A DNA stretch of 64,000 nucleotides, taken from Candidatus Nitronereus thalassa (GTDB lineage: Bacteria; Nitrospirota; Nitrospiria; Nitrospirales; UBA8639). The first letter of the stretch is position 1. Every line of letters starts with the position of its first letter. A program made the translations under genes and the position numbers. This document shows positions 2,603-26,826 of this stretch, one piece after another. The DNA is taken from the NCBI RefSeq assembly GCF_032191465.1, contig NZ_JAQOUE010000001.1, positions 1,860,001 through 1,924,000 of the forward strand, written 5' to 3'. The notes beneath the pieces are model-generated. The model worked only from the letters and a program-made list of their open reading frames with translations, was not told where the DNA came from and ran no database searches.

Positions 2603-5600
2603 TCACAACAGGCGAGAAGGCAACCCCACTAACTCTTCCTTCAATGCCGCCTCCGCCTCGGTAAACTCTTGACGCACAAGGGCGAGTTGATCCGGAATAG
2701 ATTCGATTTGCGCTTCGCGTCCCATTTTTTCTAATTCAGAACAGGCTTCTCCCAAACGCATGGTTCCGATATTTTTTCCGCTTCCTTTTAGCGTATGAGC
2801 CGCCCCGGCAAGCGCTTCGAAATTTCCTTCACTCAGGGCCTGTTGGATGTTATCAAGAAGCACACTCGATCGCTCCAAAAATTGATGGATCAAATCGGCA
2901 AGGAAACCCGAATCGTCAAGAGACAGATCTCGTAATTCACCGATCGTTGCTTCATCAAGCACCGACATCTCATCCAAAACTGGATCACGACGGGATGCCC
3001 GAGGGGACGCTGTGATACGAGGGACACCAGAGACTTCAGGCGGAGTCGTCATCTTCACAGGAATCCAAAGCTGTAACACTCGACTTAACTCTTCCAATGC
3101 GACCGGCTTGGAAATAAAATCATCCATTCCTGCCTTTAAACATTTTTCACGATCTCCTTTCATCGCATTCGCAGTCATGGCGATGATGGGCACGTGAAGC
3201 CTTGCTCGTCGCTCGTCGCTCGTCGCTCGTATCTCTTCAGACGCACCAGATATCTCTTGGTTTCCGAGCGACGATCCTCGAGCAACAAGCGACAATTCTT
3301 TTGTTCTTATCTGCCTCGTCGCTTCAAATCCATCCATTTCCGGCATTTGGCAATCCATTAACACCAAGTCATAAGAAGTCTGCAGTAATGCTTGAACGGC
3401 TTGTTCTCCGTTGTCCACCACATCTGCGGAGCATCCCAGTTTTTCTAACATCAGGACCGCCACTTTTTGATTGACCAGATTATCTTCCGCCAATAGAATT
3501 TTCATTTGCGACCGTCTCTCAACCTCATCCACACTGTACTGGGTAATCAGGGGTGAGTGTGGTGCCATACCTGGCGTTCCATCCGCACCGTCCTTTCCCA
3601 TTACCAAACACAGGGCTTTATAGAGCCGATCTTCATGCATGGGTTTTGTCAGGTAGGCAGCAAAGCCCATTTCTTGGATGGTATGCGCATCTCCCCGTTG
3701 ACCAAATGCCGTAAGCAACACCAGCTGGGGTGAGGGGCCTCCACATGCATCCTTTACCTGTTGCGCCAGATCCATATCCTGTATTTCTGTGCCATGAAGA
3801 TCACAGATCACAATATCGAATGGTTTGTGCTTGACGACGGCCAAACGAATTTTCGTCAAGGCCGAATCCATGGATTCGGCAACGACCACCTGCATGCCCC
3901 ACGCTTCCAGGTAATGAACCAACGCTTGTCGACTGGCGGCATGCTCACTCATACAACACACAGACAGCCCGGCTAAACTTTCTCGGACAATCCTAAGGTC
4001 AGAAGATCGCTCCTTGGACATTTGCAAAGGGAGGAAAAACCAAAATTGACTTCCGACCCCAGGCTCGCTCGAAAAATGAATGTCTCCTCCCATTAATTCC
4101 ACAAGCTGTCTTGAAATCGCCAACCCTAATCCGGTCCCCCCAAACTTTCGAGAGGTAGAACCATCGGCTTGGGTAAATGATTGGAATAAACGGCCATGAG
4201 CTTCAGGTGGAATCCCCACACCAGTGTCCGTGACATCAAATCGAACCACAACCCGCTCTTCCGATATCGAAGTCCCCTTCACTTGAATGACCACTTCCCC
4301 GTGATCCGTAAACTTCACGGCATTTCCGACGATATTCGTTAATACTTGCCGAATTCGACCGGGATCTCCCTTCAGGATTGTTGGAATATCGGGGGACACC
4401 AGTCCTACCAATTCCACTCCTTTCTCGTGGGCTTTTTCAGCCAGCAAATCCAGCACGTGGTTCATCGTCGACCGAACATCAAAGTCAATGACTTCAATAT
4501 CGAGTTTTCCCGCCTCGATTTTGGAGAAATCAAGAATGTCATTAATAATTGTCAACAACGCCCTCCCAGAAAATTGGACCGTTTCAGCCAATTCTCGCTG
4601 TCGAGCATCCAAGTTTGTATCCAAGAGCAACCCGTTCATGCCCATGACGCCATTCATGGGTGTCCGAATTTCATGACTCATGGTGGCCAAGAATTCAGAT
4701 TTCAGCCTGGCGGCCTCCAATGCCTGGTCACGAGCTTTTCCTAACTCAACATTCCGCAACTGAAGATGTCGAGCTGCTTCAGCCACTCGTTTTTGCGCTT
4801 GCCGTTTTTGCGCAAATTGCCCAATCTGTAGACCCCAAACCTCCATGATCTCCAGTAACTTCTCATCAGGCTCCTCGACAGACTGACTATAAAATTCGAT
4901 CACCCCGTACACTCTTCCCTCCGTATGAAAGGGAAAGGCAAATGCGCCGTGGAGATCCACGGCATGGGCCAATTGTGATCGAGGAAAATTGGAATCCTCC
5001 ACCACATCCTGAACCCAGGTAGGCTGGTTGTTCGCCCAGACCCTTCCGGGCAACCCCACACCGAGCGCAAACGTGGTAATCCGGGTTCGCTGAGAAAATT
5101 CAGTTAATGCGGCATCCCCTCCATCCCAGACCTCCACGCAATACAACACATTTTCTTCCTCATCGACTCGCCACATCGCGCCAAATTTCCATCCCAAAGT
5201 TTTACACACCATCTCCATCATTTGTGGTGCGGCCTCCCGAAGAGAGGGCGCTCCGGCCAACGCAATGGTAACCCCCCGTTGAATATTTAACCGTCGTTCA
5301 ATCGCTGCACGCTCTTCCAGTTCAGGACCAAATCCGCGAGCCACAGCCACGTATTCCCAGGCCAACCCACAGAACGGTACAAAATACGCCAGCACCTTGA
5401 ATCCATAGGCCAGACCCACTTGAGGTTCAAGGTCTGAAATGGAACCAAGAACCAAACCCTGCGCGGTCAGGTGAAAACCCATGCCAATAAAAAAGGCTTG
5501 GGCAAAGGGTCCCGATTTGATTGCACAACTTTTGAACCACCACATCACAACTCCAAGCACAAAGCCACACAATGGGATTAGTGCATAAGGACGAGTCAGC

Positions 5601-6197: not shown

Positions 6198-9100
6198 TTA
6201 AGTCGAAGAGATGGAAATTTTAGCTAATTCGGCCTCGAGCGCAATTTTCACACGCGCATATTCTTTCGATAATTCAGAGAAAGTTCCCTCTAATTGAACC
6301 GCATCGCCTCCACGACCTTTTTCTTCCAATTCCGAGCACAGTTTTCCCAACGTCAGTGCGCCCATATTGCGGCAACTTCCTTTGAAACCATGGGCGGCCT
6401 TCATCAGCGCATCGGCATTACTCTGTTCCGCAGCTTGCTCGATGGCCGAAATATGTTCAGGGCCATCAACCAGGAACTGTTGGATGACCTCTGCGAGAAA
6501 CGTCGGATCATCACCAGACAACTCCCGTAACCCGTCAAGTGTTTCGGCATCCAGGGAAGATGAGACCGATTGGTCATCAGGTTGGACAGTCATAGTTCTG
6601 TTTTCTCCATGTTGAAGGTTGTGTTCAGCATTATCTTGGGTTGAAAGCTCTTTTGGTTTGACCCATTCCATCAGAACGGCTTCTAAGGCTTCGATTTTCA
6701 CGGGCTTTGACACAAAATCATCCATCCCGGCTTTGAGACAATTTTCTCGATCTCCTGGCATCGCATTCGCGGTCATGGCGATGATGGGGACCCGCCGCTG
6801 GTCGCTGGTTGCTCGTCTCTCGTCAGACGCACCAGATATCTCTTGGTCTCCGAGCGACGAGTCACGAGCGACGAGCAACGACTCTCGTTTTCTAATCTCC
6901 TGTGTGGCTTCGAAGCCATCCATCTCCGGCATTTGACAGTCCATGAGCACCGCATCATAGGTAATGCGGGAGACCGCTTCCACGGCTTCGCTTCCATTGG
7001 CCACCACATCAACTCGATAGCCCAATTTCTCTAACATGCGCACGGCGACCTTTTGATTCACAATATTATCATCGGCAACCAAGAGCCGGCCCTCTTGCCG
7101 TCGCTGGGCCTCACGCAGGGTATACTTCGTAATCAAATCTTTCCCCCCTCCCACCGGACCTTTTATCACCTGCTCTAAACAGTCACGGAGCTGATCGTGG
7201 TGCAGTGGCTTGGTGAGATACGCGGCAATCCCCGCCTCTTTCGCCGCTGCAGCATCTCCCCGCCTTCCCAGAGAAGTGACCAAAACGATCTTAATGTCGT
7301 TGAGCGCCGGATCGGCTTTCACTTGTCTAGCCAATTCCAACCCGCTCATTTCCGGCATTTGATAAGCCAGCACCAACAGATCACAGGGCTGCCCTTGAGC
7401 CTTCGCGTCTCTCAAAAATGTCAGCGCCTCGAACCCAGATTCGGCGCTGAGGCAGGTCATCCCCCAGGCCTGCGCGTAATGATGCATGAGGAGCCGATTG
7501 GTATCGTTATCATCCACCACGCACACCCGCCGCCCTTTGAGGCTTGTGCTCATCGTGATCTTGTTATTTTTCTGGTTGACTTGCTTTTCAAGTTGAATGG
7601 TAAACCAAAACCGACTGCCATGGCCGGGGGTGCTCTCCACGCCAATCTGACCATGCATGAGTTCGGTTAATTGCTTGCAAATCGCCAAGCCCAGCCCGGT
7701 GCCACCAAACTTTCGAGTGGTTGAGCTATCCGCTTGGGTAAACGGTTGAAAAAGGCGTTGCTGCGCTTCAGCGGTCAATCCAATCCCCGTATCCATCACC
7801 TCGATTCGAATCGTCACCATTTCCGGAGTTTCGTTTTCAGGAACGACTTGGATGACGATTTCTCCCTGTTCCGTGAATTTGATGGCATTGCCCACGAGGT
7901 TCAGCAAAATTTGCCGAACTCGTCCTGGATCGCCACGAACCGCCGTCGGCACTGAGGCATATACCAACCCCACCAACTCCAACCCTTTCTCCTGGGCCTT
8001 GGCCCCTACAAGGTCGAGCACATCTTCAATGGCAATCCGCAAATCAAAATCGAGCGTTTCAATGTCCAGTTTGCCAGACTCTATCTTGGAAAAATCAAGA
8101 ACATCATTGATGATACTCAACAAGGCATCCGCCGAATGCTGGACGGTCTCGGCACATTCCCGCTGATCCTTGGTCAAATTGCTTTCCAATAACATGCCCG
8201 TCATGCCTAACACGCCATTCATGGGCGTCCGAATTTCATGGCTGACCATCGCCAAAAATGCCGATTTCAGGCGGACGGCCTCAAAAGCCTGATCACGGGC
8301 TTCCACCAAATGGGCTTCAAACTGTTTTCGTTCCGTGATGTCACGGACAATCCCAGCGAACACTCGTCGTGAATCCATGTGTACGACGCTAAGGGAAAGA
8401 TCCAACGGGAAGACAGACCCATCCTTCCGCCGGCCCTCAACTTCTCTTCCTTTTCCAATAATTTTCCCTTCCCCTGCTTCTTCATAACGTGTCCAATATC
8501 CATCATGCTCTTCATGATGGGGTGATGGCATCAGCATAGACACATTGTGACCCAAGACCTCATTTGGTTCATATCCAAATATATCCTGCGCCGCTTTGTT
8601 AAAGGATTCGATAGCACCGGCTTCGTCAATGGTAATGATCCCATCCCCTGCCGTATCCACAATGCCCTGTGTTAAGCTCATGGCATCGAGTAATTCAGCT
8701 TCCACTTTCTTTCGTTGGGTGACGTCTCGAAAGGTCACGACCGCGCCCACCATTTCTCCGAGAGAATTTCGTTGAGGAGTGCTGGCATATTCCACAGGGA
8801 AACTGGTCCCATTTTTTCGCCACAATACCTCATCGTCCACATAATGAACCGAGCCTTCATTGAAGGCCGCATACATCGGGCAGTCTTCACGAGGATATGG
8901 GGTGCCATCCGCATGAGTATGGTGCACCGTGGCATGCATAGGCATACCAATGAGTTCATCGGGATCATAGCCCAACATCCGCGCAGCAGCGGGATTGACA
9001 AATGTGGTCACTCCATTCAGATCAAGGCCATAAATCCCTTCAGCCGCAGAATCGAGAATGATGGCATTTCGTGCCCACAGCTCTTTGTTTTCTTCTAGAA

Positions 9101-12387: not shown

Positions 12388-12490
12388 TGTATTTCGTCGT
12401 TCGTATCTCGTCTTGCGTGAAGCAATTCACGTCGTGCGCATTCCGATTTATATGTTTTTACGAGATACGTTTCACGAAATACGAGATACG
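12388..12490. repeat. Heptamer inverted repeat between the ExeA-like and TPR genes
   Basis: In 7-nt register on the plus strand: TGTATTT, CGTCGTT, CGTATCT, CGTCTTG, CGTGAAG, CAATTCA, CGTCGTG (12388-12436). The opposite arm reads ACGAGAT, ACGTTTC, ACGAAAT, ACGAGAT (12460-12487). It contains the CGTGAAG punctuation word seen in the larger arrays. It fills almost the whole gap between the upstream stop and the downstream start, so it occupies the ribosome-binding region of the TPR gene. Confidence 0.75.
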
Positions 12491-20331: not shown

Positions 20332-22251
20332 TCATTCCGCCAAGGTGACAGCAGCAATATTTTCCTGGGTGGTGTTTAAGCCAACATCATTACCCTCCAA
20401 GACGATAGAGGCTAAGGCCGTGGTGTTGCCCGTTATCCCCATGGTGGTGGTCACGGCATTCAAGGCAAAAATATCATGGTATTGCACAGAAATAGGAACC
20501 GTCCCGACTGTCGCATCATGCCAATCCAATGTAGCGAGGATCGTGCCCGGCAACAACACCCGTCCTCCCATTGTCGTGGTATCCTCTACCAGGTAAACAC
20601 CGTAGACATATCGATTATTGTCAATATTAATATCCGACCCTTCTAGTAAAATAGCTGTGGTTCCCGAAGTGCTTCCAGCACCCACACTGGTCGGGACATA
20701 ATGGTGAATATCATTCCTTCCGGTTTTGGAAGAAGCGTAAAGAAAAGTCCCGGCAGGCAATATTACATCTCCTACAAGCGTGTTTTTTTCCACGACGGAA
20801 ATACCCGAAATTATCCCGTTAATGGGATTTTCCAATAACATATAAAAGGTACCTGAAGAATAGTCACCCGGTGTCGCTGGCCGGAAGACAAACACATCCT
20901 TCCACGTCACGCTCAAGGTATTGAGACTGGTCAAGGTGGCATTAAACTCTGTAGAGAGGAGAAGGTCTCCCGGTAATAAATCAAATGTGGTGGTGGTCCC
21001 TACAGTCACCCCAGTTTTTACATAATCAACGGCATCGATTTGTAGGCCCCCACTGGAAAATGTTCTAAAATTTTGCAATGAAGAAAACGTACCATTGGTA
21101 GTCCCTGGCTCCAATGCTAAATTCGGGTCGGAAAAACGAAGAACATCAGCATTCGTCCAAGAATCTAGCCCCGGAGCGCCGCTTGGGGAACCCACATCTC
21201 CGAAGGTCGCGAGCAGAATGCCGCCAAGACCGCTTCCGCATCCGCTGACTCCACCCGAACAGGCTTGAACTAAGATGGGGCCGCTTCGCCATTGCACTCC
21301 CGCCGGGCGGCAAGGGTTAAAATGATGAGTGGTATCTTCATTCGCAATGAATTGAATTTCCGGCACCGCATAAGGTATAGCTTCATCCACTCCAACTCGT
21401 GTGCCAATAAGATGATACCGGAGGTGACTGAGGGTAATGCCACAGCCGGAATTGGTGACGGTCCCGTCAATACTGTAACTCCCCCCTGTGGTATCGGCCA
21501 GCAAATTGACGAGCCGGAACAAATGGCCCACGCTGCCGCGTTCGATGAATAGATCCGGGGTCGAAGTTTCATTGGTATTCCACCATGCATCAAACTCCGT
21601 GGCGTTGGTAATGGTCGGGGCTGCATCCGCATTCAAATTTGAGATGAGGAGATATCGCGTATCCGGAATTTCGTTTTCCGCAATCCCTGCGGCATTGCTG
21701 AACGCCGCCATGGTGGGATGCAAGACGTAATACCGAGGAAAGCCTCGATCGTTTTGCAACAATCGCGTGTCCCCCATTTGCAGATATTTCGGACTCAATG
21801 CAGACAGATCTGCCGGCCAGGCATGGGTCTCCTGCAAAGACAATTCAATGGCTTGTGCAATAGCCTGAAGGTTGCTCTTCTCCGCAGTCCTTGTGGCGTC
21901 ATCGAGTCGGTTGATGAAATTGGGAAGGATGATTGCAGCAAGAATGCCAACGACGGCTAATACGCCGACAACTTCGAGGAGGGAGAAACCGTGGGATGAT
22001 CGTAGCTCGTATTTCGTATCTCGTATCTCGTGAAGAAACAGACGTCGCTCGTCGCTCGTCGCTGGTCGCTCGGGAGACGTATCTCGTATTTCGTCGCTCG
22101 TATTTCGTGAACATAAAGATATCGATGGTCCTCCGGAAAGAGTATTTCGTATCTCGTATTTCGTATTTCGTGAAGAAACAGACGTCGCTTGTCGCTCGTG
22201 AAGAGTATCTCGTATTTCGTATCTCGTATTTCGTGTCTTGGTGAGTCTCAT
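20332..22251 (-). CDS. Large prepilin-like protein 1 with repeat-encoded leader
   Basis: The class III prepilin signature HG|FSLLEVVGVLAVVGILAAII follows an 88-residue leader counted from the first ATG. Leaders are normally 6-25 residues. The whole leader is read from heptamer repeats (RNTKYEI- and TSDERR-type peptides), and no ATG, GTG or TTG lies between the array and the cleavage site. The globular part has a domain shared with the next two prepilins (WWNTNETSTPDL...) and a C-terminal half with recurring 'GSD/GND' strands (GTTAILLEGSDINI, ASIVLEGNDVGL). Probably a minor pilin or tip adhesin of the MSHA-like pilus. The true start is unknown and the gene may be disrupted. Confidence 0.7.
   Translation of the reverse strand: MRLTKTRNTRYEIRDTLHERQATSVSSRNTKYEIRNTLSGGPSISLCSRNTSDEIRDTSPERPATSDERRLFLHEIRDTKYELRSSHGFSLLEVVGVLAVVGILAAIILPNFINRLDDATRTAEKSNLQAIAQAIELSLQETHAWPADLSALSPKYLQMGDTRLLQNDRGFPRYYVLHPTMAAFSNAAGIAENEIPDTRYLLISNLNADAAPTITNATEFDAWWNTNETSTPDLFIERGSVGHLFRLVNLLADTTGGSYSIDGTVTNSGCGITLSHLRYHLIGTRVGVDEAIPYAVPEIQFIANEDTTHHFNPCRPAGVQWRSGPILVQACSGGVSGCGSGLGGILLATFGDVGSPSGAPGLDSWTNADVLRFSDPNLALEPGTTNGTFSSLQNFRTFSSGGLQIDAVDYVKTGVTVGTTTTFDLLPGDLLLSTEFNATLTSLNTLSVTWKDVFVFRPATPGDYSSGTFYMLLENPINGIISGISVVEKNTLVGDVILPAGTFLYASSKTGRNDIHHYVPTSVGAGSTSGTTAILLEGSDINIDNNRYVYGVYLVEDTTTMGGRVLLPGTILATLDWHDATVGTVPISVQYHDIFALNAVTTTMGITGNTTALASIVLEGNDVGLNTTQENIAAVTLAE
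22001..22238. repeat. Heptamer array of 34 consecutive units
   Basis: 238 bp divide exactly into 34 seven-base units without a slip. Most begin with CGT (CGTATTT, CGTATCT, CGTCGCT). Even the unlike units (CGGGAGA, ATAAAGA, TATCGAT, GGTCCTC, CGGAAAG) hold the register. CGTGAAG followed by AAACAGA occurs twice (22029 and 22169), each time leading into CGTCGCT words. One base out of register, further CGTTGCT, AGTCGCT and GGTTATC units continue to about 22274. All clear words point the same way. The array covers the 5' part of the first large prepilin gene. Confidence 0.9.
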
Positions 22252-22354: not shown

Positions 22355-24271
22355 CTATTCACTTAAATACATGCCAATGCCGTTTAGGTCGATCCCATCC
22401 AAACTCACATCCGACCCATCAAAGAACAAATAAGCGTTCGCTTCGGACTGAAAGCTCAGCAGGCCAAGTTCGGTCTTTGTCACATCCAAAATGAAAATAT
22501 CTTCCCTCTCTGTTGCGATTGAATTATCACCAACCGACGAGTCATCAGCGTCTAAAGTGACGAGAATTTGTCCAGCCAAGAGAGTGGTGCCTCCAATGGT
22601 CCTCTCTGATTCAATGAGTTCGATGCCGGTAATGTCCTGACTCAAATTAAAATCACTGCCATCGAGGAGAAGTTGCGTCGTCCCGACCGTCAAGGTGCCC
22701 ATCCTTAACGGGGTAAAGAGATAAAGATCCTCACTTGTTTCACTCAACAGCAATGTGCCGGCCTGCAGCGTGGTATCACCCACGAATGTATCCTGTTCGA
22801 CCAGAGAAACTCCCTGAGTCGAACCAAACCCAACATCGCTCGCATCAAAAAACATGATAAACGTTCCCGACGAATAATCTCCCGGTTGATCCGGACGGAA
22901 AATAAATACATCGTTATCATCGACCGAGAGGCTATTCGTGCTGTTCAACGTTTCATCCCCTTGGGTAGAAAGCAGCAAATCCCCTCTATAGAGATCGAGT
23001 GTGATGAGGGAACCCACAGTCAGATTTCTTGACACATAATGAATTGCATCGATATCGGCCTGGCCCGTAAAATTTTCGAGTTTAAAGATGGCACCATATT
23101 GACCTGCCGTGGTGCCACCCGGCGGCGAGGTCTCAAAACTCAGATTCGGATTGTCAAAGGAAACAATTTCGTCCTCACCCCAGCTCCCGATTTCCGGTAT
23201 CCCGCTCGTATCACTCGCAGTGGTCAGCCACAACACTTCACATGGCGCTGCTGGAAGCGGTGCAACAACCCATCGATCACCGATGGACCGGCACGGATCA
23301 AATTGATAGGACACATTGGTGGTGAGGGCGAACTCAATTTCCGGAGTGCCATAGGGAGTGTCTTCATCCAACGACACCACCGTTCCGGCCACATGGTACT
23401 GATTGTAATCCGTCAGCGTGCCTCCGCTTGAATCGGTCGTGGTTCCATCAATTTGGTAACTCGCGCCGGGACCAAGAAACGTCAAGTTCACCTGGTGAAA
23501 GAGGCTGGCCAGATTGCCGCGATAAATTTTAAGATCGGGCGTGGCGGTTTCATCAGTGGCCCACCAGGTTTCAAACTCGGTGGCGTTCGTGATGGTCGGC
23601 GCGGCATCTTGGCTTAAGTTTGAAACAAGCAAAAAGCGAAGCGCGATCAGATCACTTGCCGCGAGTCCCGCTCCGTTGTTAAAGGTGGCCGTGGTCGGAT
23701 GAGCCGCATAATACCGGGGGAACCCGCGAGGATTCTGCAACAACTGGGCACTATCCAATGGCACATACTCCGGACTGTGCGCGGCCAGGGTTGGTGCCCA
23801 TGCGCGATTGCGGCGTAAGTAAAGTTCGGTGCCCTCCGCGATGCCACTTAGACTCTGTAATTCCTGATCCGTGCTGAGGCGATCGTTGAGCGACACCAAA
23901 TTCGGCGCAAACACCGCCGCCAAAATCGTCATCACCGCAAGAATACCGACCATCGCGAGGAGGGTGAAACCGGGGGAAGATCGTATCTCGTATTTCGTAT
24001 CTCGTATTTCGTTATTTGGGAAGAAAGGACAACATTCGTGTTTCGTATTTCGTATTTCGTATTTCTTTAAAGGATAAAGATGAGGGACAAAAGACGAAAG
24101 AAGTATCTTCTTTGCGAGATACGAAATACGAGATACGAGATACGTCAGTTTCTTCACGAAATACGAGATACGAGATACGAACGACGTTCTTTTTATCGCG
24201 AGATACGAGCGACGAGCGACGAGCGACGTTTGTTCTCCCATCACGAACATTGCTGTCCTTGAACCAGCCAT
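22355..24271 (-). CDS. Large prepilin-like protein 2, leader repeat-encoded, lacks Glu5
   Basis: The prepilin N-helix SPG|FTLLAMVGILAVMTILAAVF is preceded by about 101 residues translated from heptamer arrays in both orientations (SRISYFV-type and KYEIRNT-type peptides). No usual start codon lies between the array and the cleavage site. Position +5 after the cleavage is Ala instead of the Glu that nearly all pilins need for subunit docking; such a change is seen in GspK-like tip subunits. The globular part is paralogous to its neighbours (ATDETATPDLKIYRGNLA). A C-terminal half has repeated FDGSDV strands (MFFDASDVGF, LLLDGSDFNL, LFFDGSDVSL). It overlaps the 3' end of prepilin 3 as drawn; the real start is unknown. 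Confidence 0.65.
   Translation of the reverse strand: MAGSRTAMFVMGEQTSLVARRSYLAIKRTSFVSRISYFVKKLTYLVSRISYLAKKILLSSFVPHLYPLKKYEIRNTKHECCPFFPNNEIRDTKYEIRSSPGFTLLAMVGILAVMTILAAVFAPNLVSLNDRLSTDQELQSLSGIAEGTELYLRRNRAWAPTLAAHSPEYVPLDSAQLLQNPRGFPRYYAAHPTTATFNNGAGLAASDLIALRFLLVSNLSQDAAPTITNATEFETWWATDETATPDLKIYRGNLASLFHQVNLTFLGPGASYQIDGTTTDSSGGTLTDYNQYHVAGTVVSLDEDTPYGTPEIEFALTTNVSYQFDPCRSIGDRWVVAPLPAAPCEVLWLTTASDTSGIPEIGSWGEDEIVSFDNPNLSFETSPPGGTTAGQYGAIFKLENFTGQADIDAIHYVSRNLTVGSLITLDLYRGDLLLSTQGDETLNSTNSLSVDDNDVFIFRPDQPGDYSSGTFIMFFDASDVGFGSTQGVSLVEQDTFVGDTTLQAGTLLLSETSEDLYLFTPLRMGTLTVGTTQLLLDGSDFNLSQDITGIELIESERTIGGTTLLAGQILVTLDADDSSVGDNSIATEREDIFILDVTKTELGLLSFQSEANAYLFFDGSDVSLDGIDLNGIGMYLSE
23982..24232. 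repeat. Large heptamer inverted repeat at a prepilin gene junction
   Basis: The left arm (23982-24064) has CGTATCT/CGTATTT words with one register slip. The right arm (24114-24232) is 17 units in perfect register in the opposite orientation (GCGAGAT, ACGAAAT, ACGAGAT, ACGTCAG, TTTCTTC ... ACGAGCG, ACGTTTG). The 49-bp centre holds ordinary sequence. The reverse complement of the right arm contains CGTGAAG-AAACTGA, the same punctuation as other arrays. It covers the leader region of prepilin 2 up to the stop of prepilin 3. Confidence 0.88.
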
Positions 24272-25161
24272 TTCGGGGTTCCCTGACAGTTAGGGTCAAA
24301 CTGATACCCGGCGTCCATCGTCAAGTTCAACTCGACTTCCGGAGTGGAGTAGGAATCACTCGTATCCAGCTTTACCGGAGTGCCCACTACATGGTAGCGG
24401 TTGTGAAGCGCCAGGGTTTGATTGCCGGGAGTACCGGTCGAGGTTCCGTCGATCTGGTAACTTCCACCCGGGCCAACTGGGCTCAGGCTCACCAAATGAA
24501 ACATATTGCCTAAATGCCCGCGATAAATTTTCAGATTCGGCGTGGAGGTTTCATCCGTATTCCACCAGGCATTAAATTGTGTGGCATTGGCAATCGTAGG
24601 ACTGGCATTCGCACTGATATCTGAAATCAGCAAAAACCGCATATCCGGCAACGCACTTTCAGCGAGACCGGTGGCATTGGAAAAACCTGCGGTGGTGGGA
24701 TGGGCAAAATAGTACCGGGAATACCCTCGGCTATTTTGAAGTAGCTGGGCCGAGCCAAAAGACACATATTTAGGACTGAGGGCCGCAAGGTTGGGAGGCC
24801 AGGTTCGGTTTTCCCGAAAATACACCTTCACCCCTTCGGCTATGGCCTGGAGGTTTTTGGTTTCCTCGGTTTGTTCGGCACGGTCAAAGACATCTATGAC
24901 ATTGGGAATCGCAATCGCCGCCAGCGTCGCCATAATCGCCAACACCCCGATGACTTCGATGAGGGTGAAACCGGCGGCGTTAAGCGCCGCGCATCTCGTA
25001 TTGCGTATTTCGTATTTCGTATTTCGTGAAGAGAAAAACGTCTCTCGTATCTGGGGAGAAGTATCTTGTATCTTGTATCTCGTATCTCGTGAAGAAAAGA
25101 ACGTATCTTGTATCTCGTATTTCGTATCTCGTTTTTTCAGAAAAGATGCTTGAAAAGTCAT
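24241..25161 (-). CDS. Large prepilin-like protein 3 (short form), repeat-encoded leader
   Basis: 306 residues. The signature NAAG|FTLIEVIGVLAIMATLAAI has the normal Glu5. The leader from the first ATG is 64 residues, of which about 45 come from the 20-unit heptamer array. The ATG itself lies outside the array. The globular domain is paralogous to prepilins 1 and 2 (NTDETSTPNLKIYRGHLG, HNRYHVVGTPVKLD) but ends at the Cys-containing tail without the extra C-terminal half. The three genes probably arose by tandem duplication. No Shine-Dalgarno precedes the ATG, so an alternative start or a disrupted gene remains possible. Confidence 0.7.
   Translation of the reverse strand: MTFQASFLKKRDTKYEIQDTFFSSRDTRYKIQDTSPQIRETFFSSRNTKYEIRNTRCAALNAAGFTLIEVIGVLAIMATLAAIAIPNVIDVFDRAEQTEETKNLQAIAEGVKVYFRENRTWPPNLAALSPKYVSFGSAQLLQNSRGYSRYYFAHPTTAGFSNATGLAESALPDMRFLLISDISANASPTIANATQFNAWWNTDETSTPNLKIYRGHLGNMFHLVSLSPVGPGGSYQIDGTSTGTPGNQTLALHNRYHVVGTPVKLDTSDSYSTPEVELNLTMDAGYQFDPNCQGTPKWLVQGQQCS
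24997..25136. repeat. Heptamer array of 20 units, left flank of the four-helix gene
   Basis: 140 bp in perfect 7-nt register, plus orientation: CGTATTG, CGTATTT x3, CGTGAAG, AGAAAAA, CGTCTCT, CGTATCT, GGGGAGA, AGTATCT, TGTATCT x2, CGTATCT, CGTGAAG, AAAAGAA, CGTATCT, TGTATCT, CGTATTT, CGTATCT, CGTTTTT. The CGTGAAG plus A-rich punctuation occurs twice. It lies downstream of the four-helix-bundle gene and inside the leader region of prepilin 3. Confidence 0.9.
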
Positions 25162-25184
25162 GGGTCACGTTAAAATCTATTTGA

Positions 25185-25556
25185 TTAGGTAGATACGTTT
25201 ATCTTCTTTATAAGGCTTTTGAGCATTCGGGATTCATGGTCCAATTTTTCCAAAAGGTTTCCTTTGCCCCTACTTGGTAAAAATCCTAAATCACAACTCA
25301 ATTCCACTTGGGTTTCTAACTCGGCACAAGACCCAAGTGCCATGTACAAAAATTGCCGATATTCCTTGTTGTGAATTCGGATAAATCCTTCGGCGATATT
25401 CGACGGGATTGAAACCGCAGCGCGTCGCATTTGAGACACTAATCCATACATTTCTTCTTTGGGAAAACTCTTACTCGACTGATACACCTCCAAAGCAATT
25501 TCTTTTCCTAGTCTCCATACCTCAAGATCCCTAAAACTTTTTATCTTTGTTGCCAT
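25185..25556 (-). CDS. Four-helix-bundle protein (23S rRNA intervening-sequence protein / bAvd-like family)
   Basis: 123 residues, the usual length of the family (PF05635/TIGR02436). Motifs: IKSFRDLEVWRLGKEIALEVY, MRRAAVSIPSNIAEGF and LGSCAELETQVELS. Relatives are encoded in intervening sequences of some 23S rRNA genes and as stand-alone genes. The same fold serves as the Avd accessory protein of diversity-generating retroelements, where it forms basic pentamers that bind nucleic acid. No reverse transcriptase, variable repeat or rRNA is nearby. The gene interrupts a pilus operon between GspF-like and prepilin genes, has no Shine-Dalgarno, and is bracketed by heptamer arrays pointing in opposite directions. 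I infer that it belongs to the repeat element rather than to the pilus. Its role is unknown. Confidence 0.85.
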   Translation of the reverse strand: MATKIKSFRDLEVWRLGKEIALEVYQSSKSFPKEEMYGLVSQMRRAAVSIPSNIAEGFIRIHNKEYRQFLYMALGSCAELETQVELSCDLGFLPSRGKGNLLEKLDHESRMLKSLIKKINVST

Positions 25557-25570
25557 CAATCGTTTTTTTT

Positions 25571-25605
25571 ACGAAATACTAAATACGAGATACGAAATAC
25601 GTTCT
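25571..25605. repeat. Heptamer array of 5 units, right flank of the four-helix gene (inverted)
   Basis: ACGAAAT, ACTAAAT, ACGAGAT, ACGAAAT, ACGTTCT followed by a T-run. The words are the reverse complement of those on the left flank. ACGTTCTTTT mirrors the AAAAGAACGT junction in the left array. The array lies just upstream of the four-helix ATG and 12 bp past the GspF-like stop. Confidence 0.82.
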
Positions 25606-25617
25606 TTTTTAACGTTT

Positions 25618-26826
25618 TTATCTGATCCCTCCCACCAGGCTCATCATGGGGAGGAAGATCGACACCGCGACGAAGCCGAGGAGCACGATGAGTCCAACCG
25701 TGACCAGAGGTTCGACTAACCCAAAGACGCGCTTCATGCGGCGGGGAATTTCTTCGTTGTAATAATCCGAGACATTGGCCATGGTTTGGCCCAATCGCCC
25801 GGATGACTCACCCACCGTGACCATCTGCAACACCATGGGAGGAAAGACCGAATATCGACTTAAGCAGGCACTCAACGTCTTGCCTTCGGAGACTCCCTTT
25901 TCAGTTTCAATGAGAGCTTTTTCCACGACCCGATTTCCCACCAACGACTGGCACAGCTTAAGGCAGCGTAAAATCGGCACCCCCGAGCGAAACAACACTC
26001 CGAAATTCTGGGCGAAGCGCGAAATGACTAACATGCGAACGACTTCTCCAAAAATGGGGAGTTTGAGCTTCAAGGCATCGAGTTGGTATCCGACTTCCGG
26101 AGAATTTCGACCTAATAACACCACAATGGGAATCAGCAGGAGGGCGGTTCCCCAATACATCCAGGTCGCCACTAGCAAGTCACTCGCATGCATGATCACG
26201 ATGGTGGGAAGGGGTAACGGCACTTTGAGGCTGACCAAGACCGTTGAAAACCGAGGGATCACAAACGTAAACAGGAGGATCATAAACAGGAATAGGCCGC
26301 CCAATACTAACGAGGGATAGATGGTCGCCTGCCGGACATCACCAATCATCCGATCCACCCATTCCAAATACCGTCGAAGCTCCCCAAAGGTGTCGGCTAA
26401 GGTTCCGCTTTCTTCCCCGGCCTGCACCAAATGGGCCATTTCTTCAGGAAAATAGGATGGGTGTTCTTTGAGCGCTTCATGGAGGGGCACTCCCGTCTCG
26501 ATCCGCTTCCATATCGCGAGCATGACTTTTTTGAATTGAGGATCGGTCGCCTGGTCCGCAAAGCCTTTAATCGCCGGAGAGACCTGCACGCCCGCGGAGA
26601 GAAGACTGTTCATATGAATGCCAAAGACAATCAGCAATTGCCGCTTGGCACGATTAAACCGTGTCTTTTTTTGTGCTCCCGCACCTGTCTTACTTTCCTT
26701 CGCCTCGACCAACCACAGTCCATTCCCTTCCAGTTGTGATTGCAGGGCTTCCATATTCGACGCCGACAAGAAGCCCTCCACCGGCTGGCCTTGGGCATCG
26801 ACGGCGCGATAGGCGAATTTAACCAT
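25618..26826 (-). CDS. mshG: GspF/PilC-family inner-membrane platform protein (MshG-like)
   Basis: 402 residues with two T2SSF domains and three membrane segments: ATIYPSLVLGGLFLFMILLF (about 170-190), WMYWGTALLLIPIVVLLG, and a C-terminal helix LVTVGLIVLLGFVAVSIF. The N-terminus FAYRAVDAQGQPVEGFLSA is the usual GspF/PilC opening, and VPLHEALKEHP and EAGEESGTLADT-like segments are conserved. It forms the platform that couples ATPase movement to pilin assembly. Its ATG overlaps the GspE-like stop by 8 bp. The pilus operon is interrupted immediately downstream by the four-helix gene and its arrays. Confidence 0.88.
   Translation of the reverse strand: MVKFAYRAVDAQGQPVEGFLSASNMEALQSQLEGNGLWLVEAKESKTGAGAQKKTRFNRAKRQLLIVFGIHMNSLLSAGVQVSPAIKGFADQATDPQFKKVMLAIWKRIETGVPLHEALKEHPSYFPEEMAHLVQAGEESGTLADTFGELRRYLEWVDRMIGDVRQATIYPSLVLGGLFLFMILLFTFVIPRFSTVLVSLKVPLPLPTIVIMHASDLLVATWMYWGTALLLIPIVVLLGRNSPEVGYQLDALKLKLPIFGEVVRMLVISRFAQNFGVLFRSGVPILRCLKLCQSLVGNRVVEKALIETEKGVSEGKTLSACLSRYSVFPPMVLQMVTVGESSGRLGQTMANVSDYYNEEIPRRMKRVFGLVEPLVTVGLIVLLGFVAVSIFLPMMSLVGGIR

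Follow-up and report, generated by a model that had tools for sequence, protein, structure and literature searches.

The intervening sequences (IVSs) found in 23S rRNA genes of Leptospira and Coxiella are patchily distributed, carry an open reading frame for an S23 protein within an inverted terminal stem and have long been suspected to be mobile (PMC4990558). The IVS of Coxiella was called a selfish element, the terminal stem of which is processed by RNase III, and the S23 proteins (PF05635; IVP in the following) are without known function (PMC4990558). Dispersed tandem arrays of 7-nt units, variable in number, have been described for cyanobacteria, Xanthomonas and Beggiatoaceae, namely the cyanobacterial STRRs, the GGGAATC/GGGGAYT heptamers of Xanthomonas and Nostoc and TAACTGA of Beggiatoaceae, and the passages considered propose neither a protein maker nor a protein partner (PMC2670836, PMC4692102, PMC4679880). 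In REPIN/RAYT systems, the gene of a protein with a Y1/HUH transposase domain is flanked by REP palindromes and occurs together with many inverted copies that lack the gene. Rickettsia palindromic elements (RPEs) are palindromic repeats that occur within protein genes, in frame and at positions where an insert is tolerated.

The elements described here share with the rRNA IVSs the protein family, the inverted stem around an open reading frame and the patchy distribution. In contrast to them, they are located in protein operons and genes, their arms are tandem arrays of 7- or 8-nt units with a private word for each copy, and gene-less arrays are dispersed in the genome. They differ from the STRR-type heptamers in that such arrays form the arms of IVP genes, also on plasmids of Nostoc and Calothrix. 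As in REPIN/RAYT, a protein gene is flanked by repeats and accompanied by many inverted protein-less copies, an association that is only correlative here; the flanked gene, however, encodes a PF05635 four-helix bundle instead of a Y1/HUH transposase, and tandem heptamers, the word of which differs even between paralogues of one genome, take the place of the REP palindromes. Within open-access full texts, no paper was found that joins IVP and heptamer arrays.

An IVP gene between inverted heptamer arrays

The window, that is, the whole 64-kb stretch of DNA analysed here, contains the sole IVP gene of the 4.01-Mb genome at positions 25185..25556 on the minus strand. It starts with ATG, an alternative TTG start shifting this end to 25559, and no Shine-Dalgarno sequence was seen before it, as had been claimed in the original prediction. 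The predicted family and fold were likewise confirmed: the protein matched PF05635 (E=3.7e-36; 124 bits, cut-off 33.8), and its AlphaFold2 model is a confident four-helix bundle (pLDDT 93), for which Foldseek returned the S23 protein 2gsc (0.7 A, 40% identity) and 2rld as well as the Avd proteins 8ub7 and 4dwl (TM 0.75-0.8). 2GSC is the S23 protein XCC0516 of Xanthomonas campestris, the genome of which is rich in GGGAATC heptamers.

The left arm (24997..25136, plus strand; downstream in the sense of the gene) comprises 20 CGTATTT-type units in the perfect 7-nt register that had been predicted. Units 1-10 are CGTATTG, CGTATTT (three times), CGTGAAG, AGAAAAA, CGTCTCT, CGTATCT, GGGGAGA and AGTATCT, followed in units 11-20 by TGTATCT (twice), CGTATCT, CGTGAAG, AAAAGAA, CGTATCT, TGTATCT, CGTATTT, CGTATCT and CGTTTTT. 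The right arm (25570..25601, minus strand; upstream in the sense of the gene) is an inverted CGTATTT-type array, expected to be the reverse complement in five units and measured at about 4.6. In the folded sense RNA, both arms pair with each other across the IVP gene (-149.9 kcal/mol, z = -2.6). Throughout the window, eleven arrays with a lag of 7 were counted and none with lags of 5, 6, 8, 9, 10 or 11.

The element is located between a PilC-type gene (25618..26826, minus strand), which served as the anchor for empty sites, and a pseudopilin gene (24241..25161, minus strand; N_methyl at residues 61-85), and not in a 23S or 16S rRNA gene. By location it is not an rRNA IVS, although the protein family and the inverted stem agree with one. 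The start codon of the pseudopilin gene is inside the element, and the left arm is translated as an N-terminal extension of the pseudopilin (RDTKYEIQDT...). Empty sites were measured as the distance from the PilC stop codon to the pseudopilin cleavage motif, which amounts to 645 bp in the window and to 658, 614 and 427 bp in the IVP-carrying relatives G022, G023 and G024, versus 58 bp in G020 and 72-74 bp in several genomes of another genus, all of which lack gene and arrays. The comparison with relatives that had been proposed as a check thus reveals gene and arrays as one insertion (645 vs 58-74 bp), and the pilus operon is indeed interrupted.

Pairing of IVP genes and arrays across phyla

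PF05635 loci were gathered from the family and phylum of the window and from many phyla, and arrays were counted within 300 bp of 166 full-length unique loci (89 from Nitrospirota and 77 others). A period-7 or period-8 array was present beside 36 of the 89 Nitrospirota loci and 45 of the 77 loci elsewhere, compared to 1-3% of distant tiles. For lag 7 alone, 36 of 200 IVP flanks carried an array versus 1 of 185 tiles at a distance of 700-1000 bp (p = 2e-10); a further comparison gave 58/160 versus 14/561 (p = 3e-29). The enrichment in other phyla, by which the original prediction was to be judged, was therefore strong. None of 60 PIN-domain gene flanks from the same phylum had arrays, and lags of 4, 5, 11 and 12 yielded nothing beside IVP genes. 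A more sensitive test, in which the upstream flank was compared for common 7-mers with the reverse-complemented downstream flank, identified complementary inverted flanks in 99 of 168 IVP loci (59%) versus 2.2% of mismatched loci; approximately 40% of the IVP loci are without clear arms. Arrays also bracket or flank all of the six IVP genes examined on cyanobacterial plasmids, Nostoc and Calothrix included (AGTAGGG, AGGGAAC, AGGGTGT, GGGAAAA, AAAAGCT and TCAGAAT types), and are present at 13 of 22 IVP loci in IMG/VR contigs. The pairing of IVP and heptamer arrays is real and widespread. IVP genes were found in 181 of the 296 Nitrospirota genomes sampled, with a patchy distribution across the phylum, and in many other phyla; among 50,697 phage records there was no match, for which reason carriage by phages was rejected, although 33 putatively viral IMG/VR contigs hold an IVP.

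Protein and heptamer arms had been predicted to form a mobile unit. The enrichment and the empty sites support this claim in part, but neither a transposition event nor a target duplication nor sharp element ends were found, the limits of the element being given approximately by twin copies and empty sites. Moreover, five near-identical IVP genes of Calothrix PCC 7103 (L403, L406, L410, L413 and L417) ride in an insertion sequence, presumably ISL3-like. These identical copies were rejected as proof of self-mobility since they are passengers of the insertion sequence, so that at least some of the movement is not due to the element itself.

Private words of the arms

The CGTATTT-type arms of the original prediction apply to the window locus, whereas each locus elsewhere has its own word, and even the paralogues of one genome differ in it, as exemplified by the arms in G062 (AGGTGAAG, ATGGAAT, AGGCTTT, AAATTTG and GGTTAA-type). 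In most of the two-sided loci (23 of 28, p = 0.0009), the arms were inverted, with the direct orientation fitting better in five. In the direction of the gene, the words are rich in G (36%) and poor in C (12%). Within most arrays, the variation is confined to one or two of the seven unit positions and consists chiefly of transitions. An 8-nt period was observed in some lineages (L196, L055, L063 and L097; TCCTAACC, GGTGAAGx), and the period of L319, a copy from G062, looks nearer to 6 nt.

Word similarity tracks protein similarity, also for proteins with less than 70% identity (Mantel r = 0.18, 0 of 2000 permutations). This correlation is weak in size, which led us to reject a strict word-protein code, and common descent could be part of its cause. 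The orthologous genes at the PilC site carry unlike words, CGTATTT in the window and CGTGAAG/GTGAAGT in G023 and G022, so that the arms change more quickly than the gene. In the twin copies of G062, the gene is identical at 313 of 315 positions, and the arms differ at approximately 13 of 83 (about 15%, p = 5e-8). The IVP protein is under purifying selection (dN/dS 0.05-0.31).

Dispersed arrays and the presence of the gene

Gene-less copies, the existence of which had been predicted, are numerous. With the pattern CGTATYT, allowing at most two mismatches over 19 bases, 78 hits at approximately 30 places were obtained in the window genome, and the reversed pattern gave one hit; genome-wide counts relied on such patterns and on 20-kb samples. 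These are dispersed, degenerate 7-nt tandem arrays of the STRR type, and in the clusters with both orientations close together the order, as read by eye, is the same in seven of seven. Relatives with an IVP have 58 (G027), 50 (G023), 40 (G022) and 19 (G024) such arrays. Among genomes without an intact IVP, G025 has five, and G021, G013, G014 and G016 have none, the count for the closest gene-free relative being 0. CGTGAAR arrays follow the same pattern across the relatives. At the PilC site of G025, a decayed IVP with eroded arms, the only recognisable copy there, is present as a pseudogene, and G025 therefore gives the impression of ongoing array loss after the loss of the gene. A word-free scan for period-7 or period-8 arrays detected 30 in 400 kb of G062, which has seven IVPs, and the IVP-free G013 had no such array over 280 kb. 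Compared with foreign word sets, the words at the IVP loci of G062 gave the better match to the dispersed words of this genome, a match reached by none of 1000 random sets. In three genomes with an IVP (G028, G029 and G019), the searched words were absent. In the tested lineages, the same words are dispersed only where the IVP is or recently was present. This is a correlation, from which shared ancestry has been incompletely removed because the co-occurrence stems largely from two related genera and two other genomes.

The other arrays of the window had been described as inverted pairs. This is correct for the forward arm at 23981..24065 (plus strand) with its reverse partner at 24114..24234 (minus strand), for the CGTCGCT-type pair at 3204..3290 (3204-3230/3260-3290), for the pair at 6800..6881 (6800-6825/6851-6881) and for the CGTATTT-type pair at 12400..12483 (12400-12422/12456-12483), but not for the cluster at 22000..22238 (plus strand), which has one orientation only and is located 5' of another pseudopilin gene. 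Some arrays of the pilus operon may reflect the duplication of a unit of array plus pseudopilin, and not an independent loss of the gene. The pair at 3204..3290 lies in frame in the receiver-domain part of a hybrid kinase and that at 6800..6881 at the matching place of a second one, in both cases ahead of the receiver-domain sequence VPIIAMTANAM. The array pairs of these paralogous kinases have an identical 24-bp centre in common (CAGACGCACCAGATATCTCTTGGT; window positions 3238-3261 and 6824-6847).

Proposed system and alternative explanations

We hypothesize here that the IVP is the basis of a selfish, word-specific repeat system similar to REPIN/RAYT, the full version of which consists of an IVP gene enclosed by oppositely oriented arrays of its private word and inserted on the sense strand of operons and genes; we assign this reading a probability of about 0.58. 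Given that a RAYT transposase is absent, the system would be a working analogue of REPIN/RAYT and not a member. The IVP would recognise the word of its own locus, on either DNA or RNA and perhaps with one unit per protomer, and a pentameric ring, as in the solved relative, might bring the two arms together. With the help of host enzymes, the arrays could then persist and be copied to other places, which would give rise to gene-less arrays, much as RAYT sustains REPINs. The IVP has no recognisable nuclease or polymerase, so the copying must borrow host replication or repair, and one conceivable, rather speculative route is template switching on single-stranded DNA.

This reading offers a testable role for the IVP family, to which no function has been assigned, and it may give one explanation for dispersed heptamer repeats, on which scattered descriptions have accumulated over decades with no maker being known. 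If the IVP reads its own word, each locus constitutes a natural pair of protein and nucleic acid recognition, and paralogous pairs could teach the code. If true, the system would furthermore spread by itself in the absence of any recognisable enzyme. A more far-reaching and tentative proposal, to which we give slightly less than even odds, is that of a new class of selfish elements across bacterial phyla, in which an enzyme-less ring protein recognises a private 7-8-nt word, sustains and spreads arrays, lets the words diverge from lineage to lineage and enters genes with their reading frames kept intact; this class would have left the heptamers of Nostoc, Calothrix, Xanthomonas and Beggiatoaceae as its footprints, and the rRNA intervening sequences would be an offshoot.

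The main rival to the selfish repeat system is a role at the RNA level, in which the arms form a transcript stem that is bound by the IVP, perhaps cut by RNase III, and sets the translation or stability of the host operon, the dispersed arrays being targets of a regulatory network. Both neighbours are co-directional with the IVP gene in 117 of 152 loci versus 53% of ordinary genes (p = 5e-8), and this sense-strand bias is in line with a function in the transcript, as are the pairing of the arms across the window gene and the location of IVP starts and downstream starts inside the element. The excision of rRNA IVSs by RNase III (PMC4990558) and the transcript stability or translation coupling suggested for STRR hairpins (PMC2670836) point in the same direction. 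Against such a role, the arrays occur in functionally unrelated host genes, also as in-frame coding inserts, the words change between orthologous PilC sites while the gene stays, and presence across the phylum is patchy. We consider an RNA-level module unlikely, albeit the strongest of the alternatives.

It is even less probable that IVP genes insert into pre-existing heptamer microsatellites and that the arrays arise by ordinary slippage unrelated to the protein. In favour of this, the arrays far outnumber the IVP genes in the window genome, but the arms are inverted and do not represent a split direct array, the empty sites are free of arrays, IVP-free relatives have few or none of them, and slippage alone gives no reason for periods of 7-8 only.

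A mechanism related to DGRs or telomerase, with the IVP as partner of a reverse transcriptase that uses a short template to synthesize the heptamers, is suggested by the fold shared with the Avd proteins of DGRs (8ub7, 4dwl), by the G-rich strand with its 7-8-nt period and by arm units that vary when the gene does not. However, the window genome, G022, G241 and G246 have an IVP and no RVT_1 match, which makes a reverse-transcriptase partner unlikely and led to its rejection, given that several of these genomes bear arrays. Adenine-specific mutagenesis of the units, also considered, was not seen, the variation being mainly by transitions, and we regard this mechanism as highly improbable. Chance or an annotation artefact, for which nothing speaks beyond the low complexity of the words, is practically negligible in view of p-values of 1e-10 to 1e-29 with matched controls, the period specificity and the independent collections.

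Insertion into host genes

The elements are found at tolerated positions, such as gene junctions and loops, with the host frames kept open. The start codon of the next gene is often inside the element, for example in the ArsA-like and CobQ-like genes of G062 (named from sequence by eye), and the arm thereby becomes an N-terminal extension. At seven loci from six lineages (L008, L012, L032, L131, L137, L151 and L184), belonging to several phyla, the element is located inside a DNA-methyltransferase gene, the frame of which is open through both arms and the IVP gene; it is the +1 relative frame, resulting in dual coding with the IVP gene. An intact empty homologue in G004 identifies the insertion site as a variable loop (LIGQPDV...VRGFDYYN). 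RPEs are alike in their in-frame insertion at tolerated places, but they have fixed sequences within a family and no gene of the IVP kind.

Other low-complexity inserts (SPSPQPSPSRGEG type) were observed in the same methyltransferase loop at L332 and L347; this loop may thus be an entry point for repeats in general. Three near-identical IVP copies of G062 (L061, L062 and L323) adjoin CRISPR-like repeats (GGGACTGAAAC), and on the Pseudanabaena replicon pPg_01 (L391) the IVP is located between cas6 and cas4.
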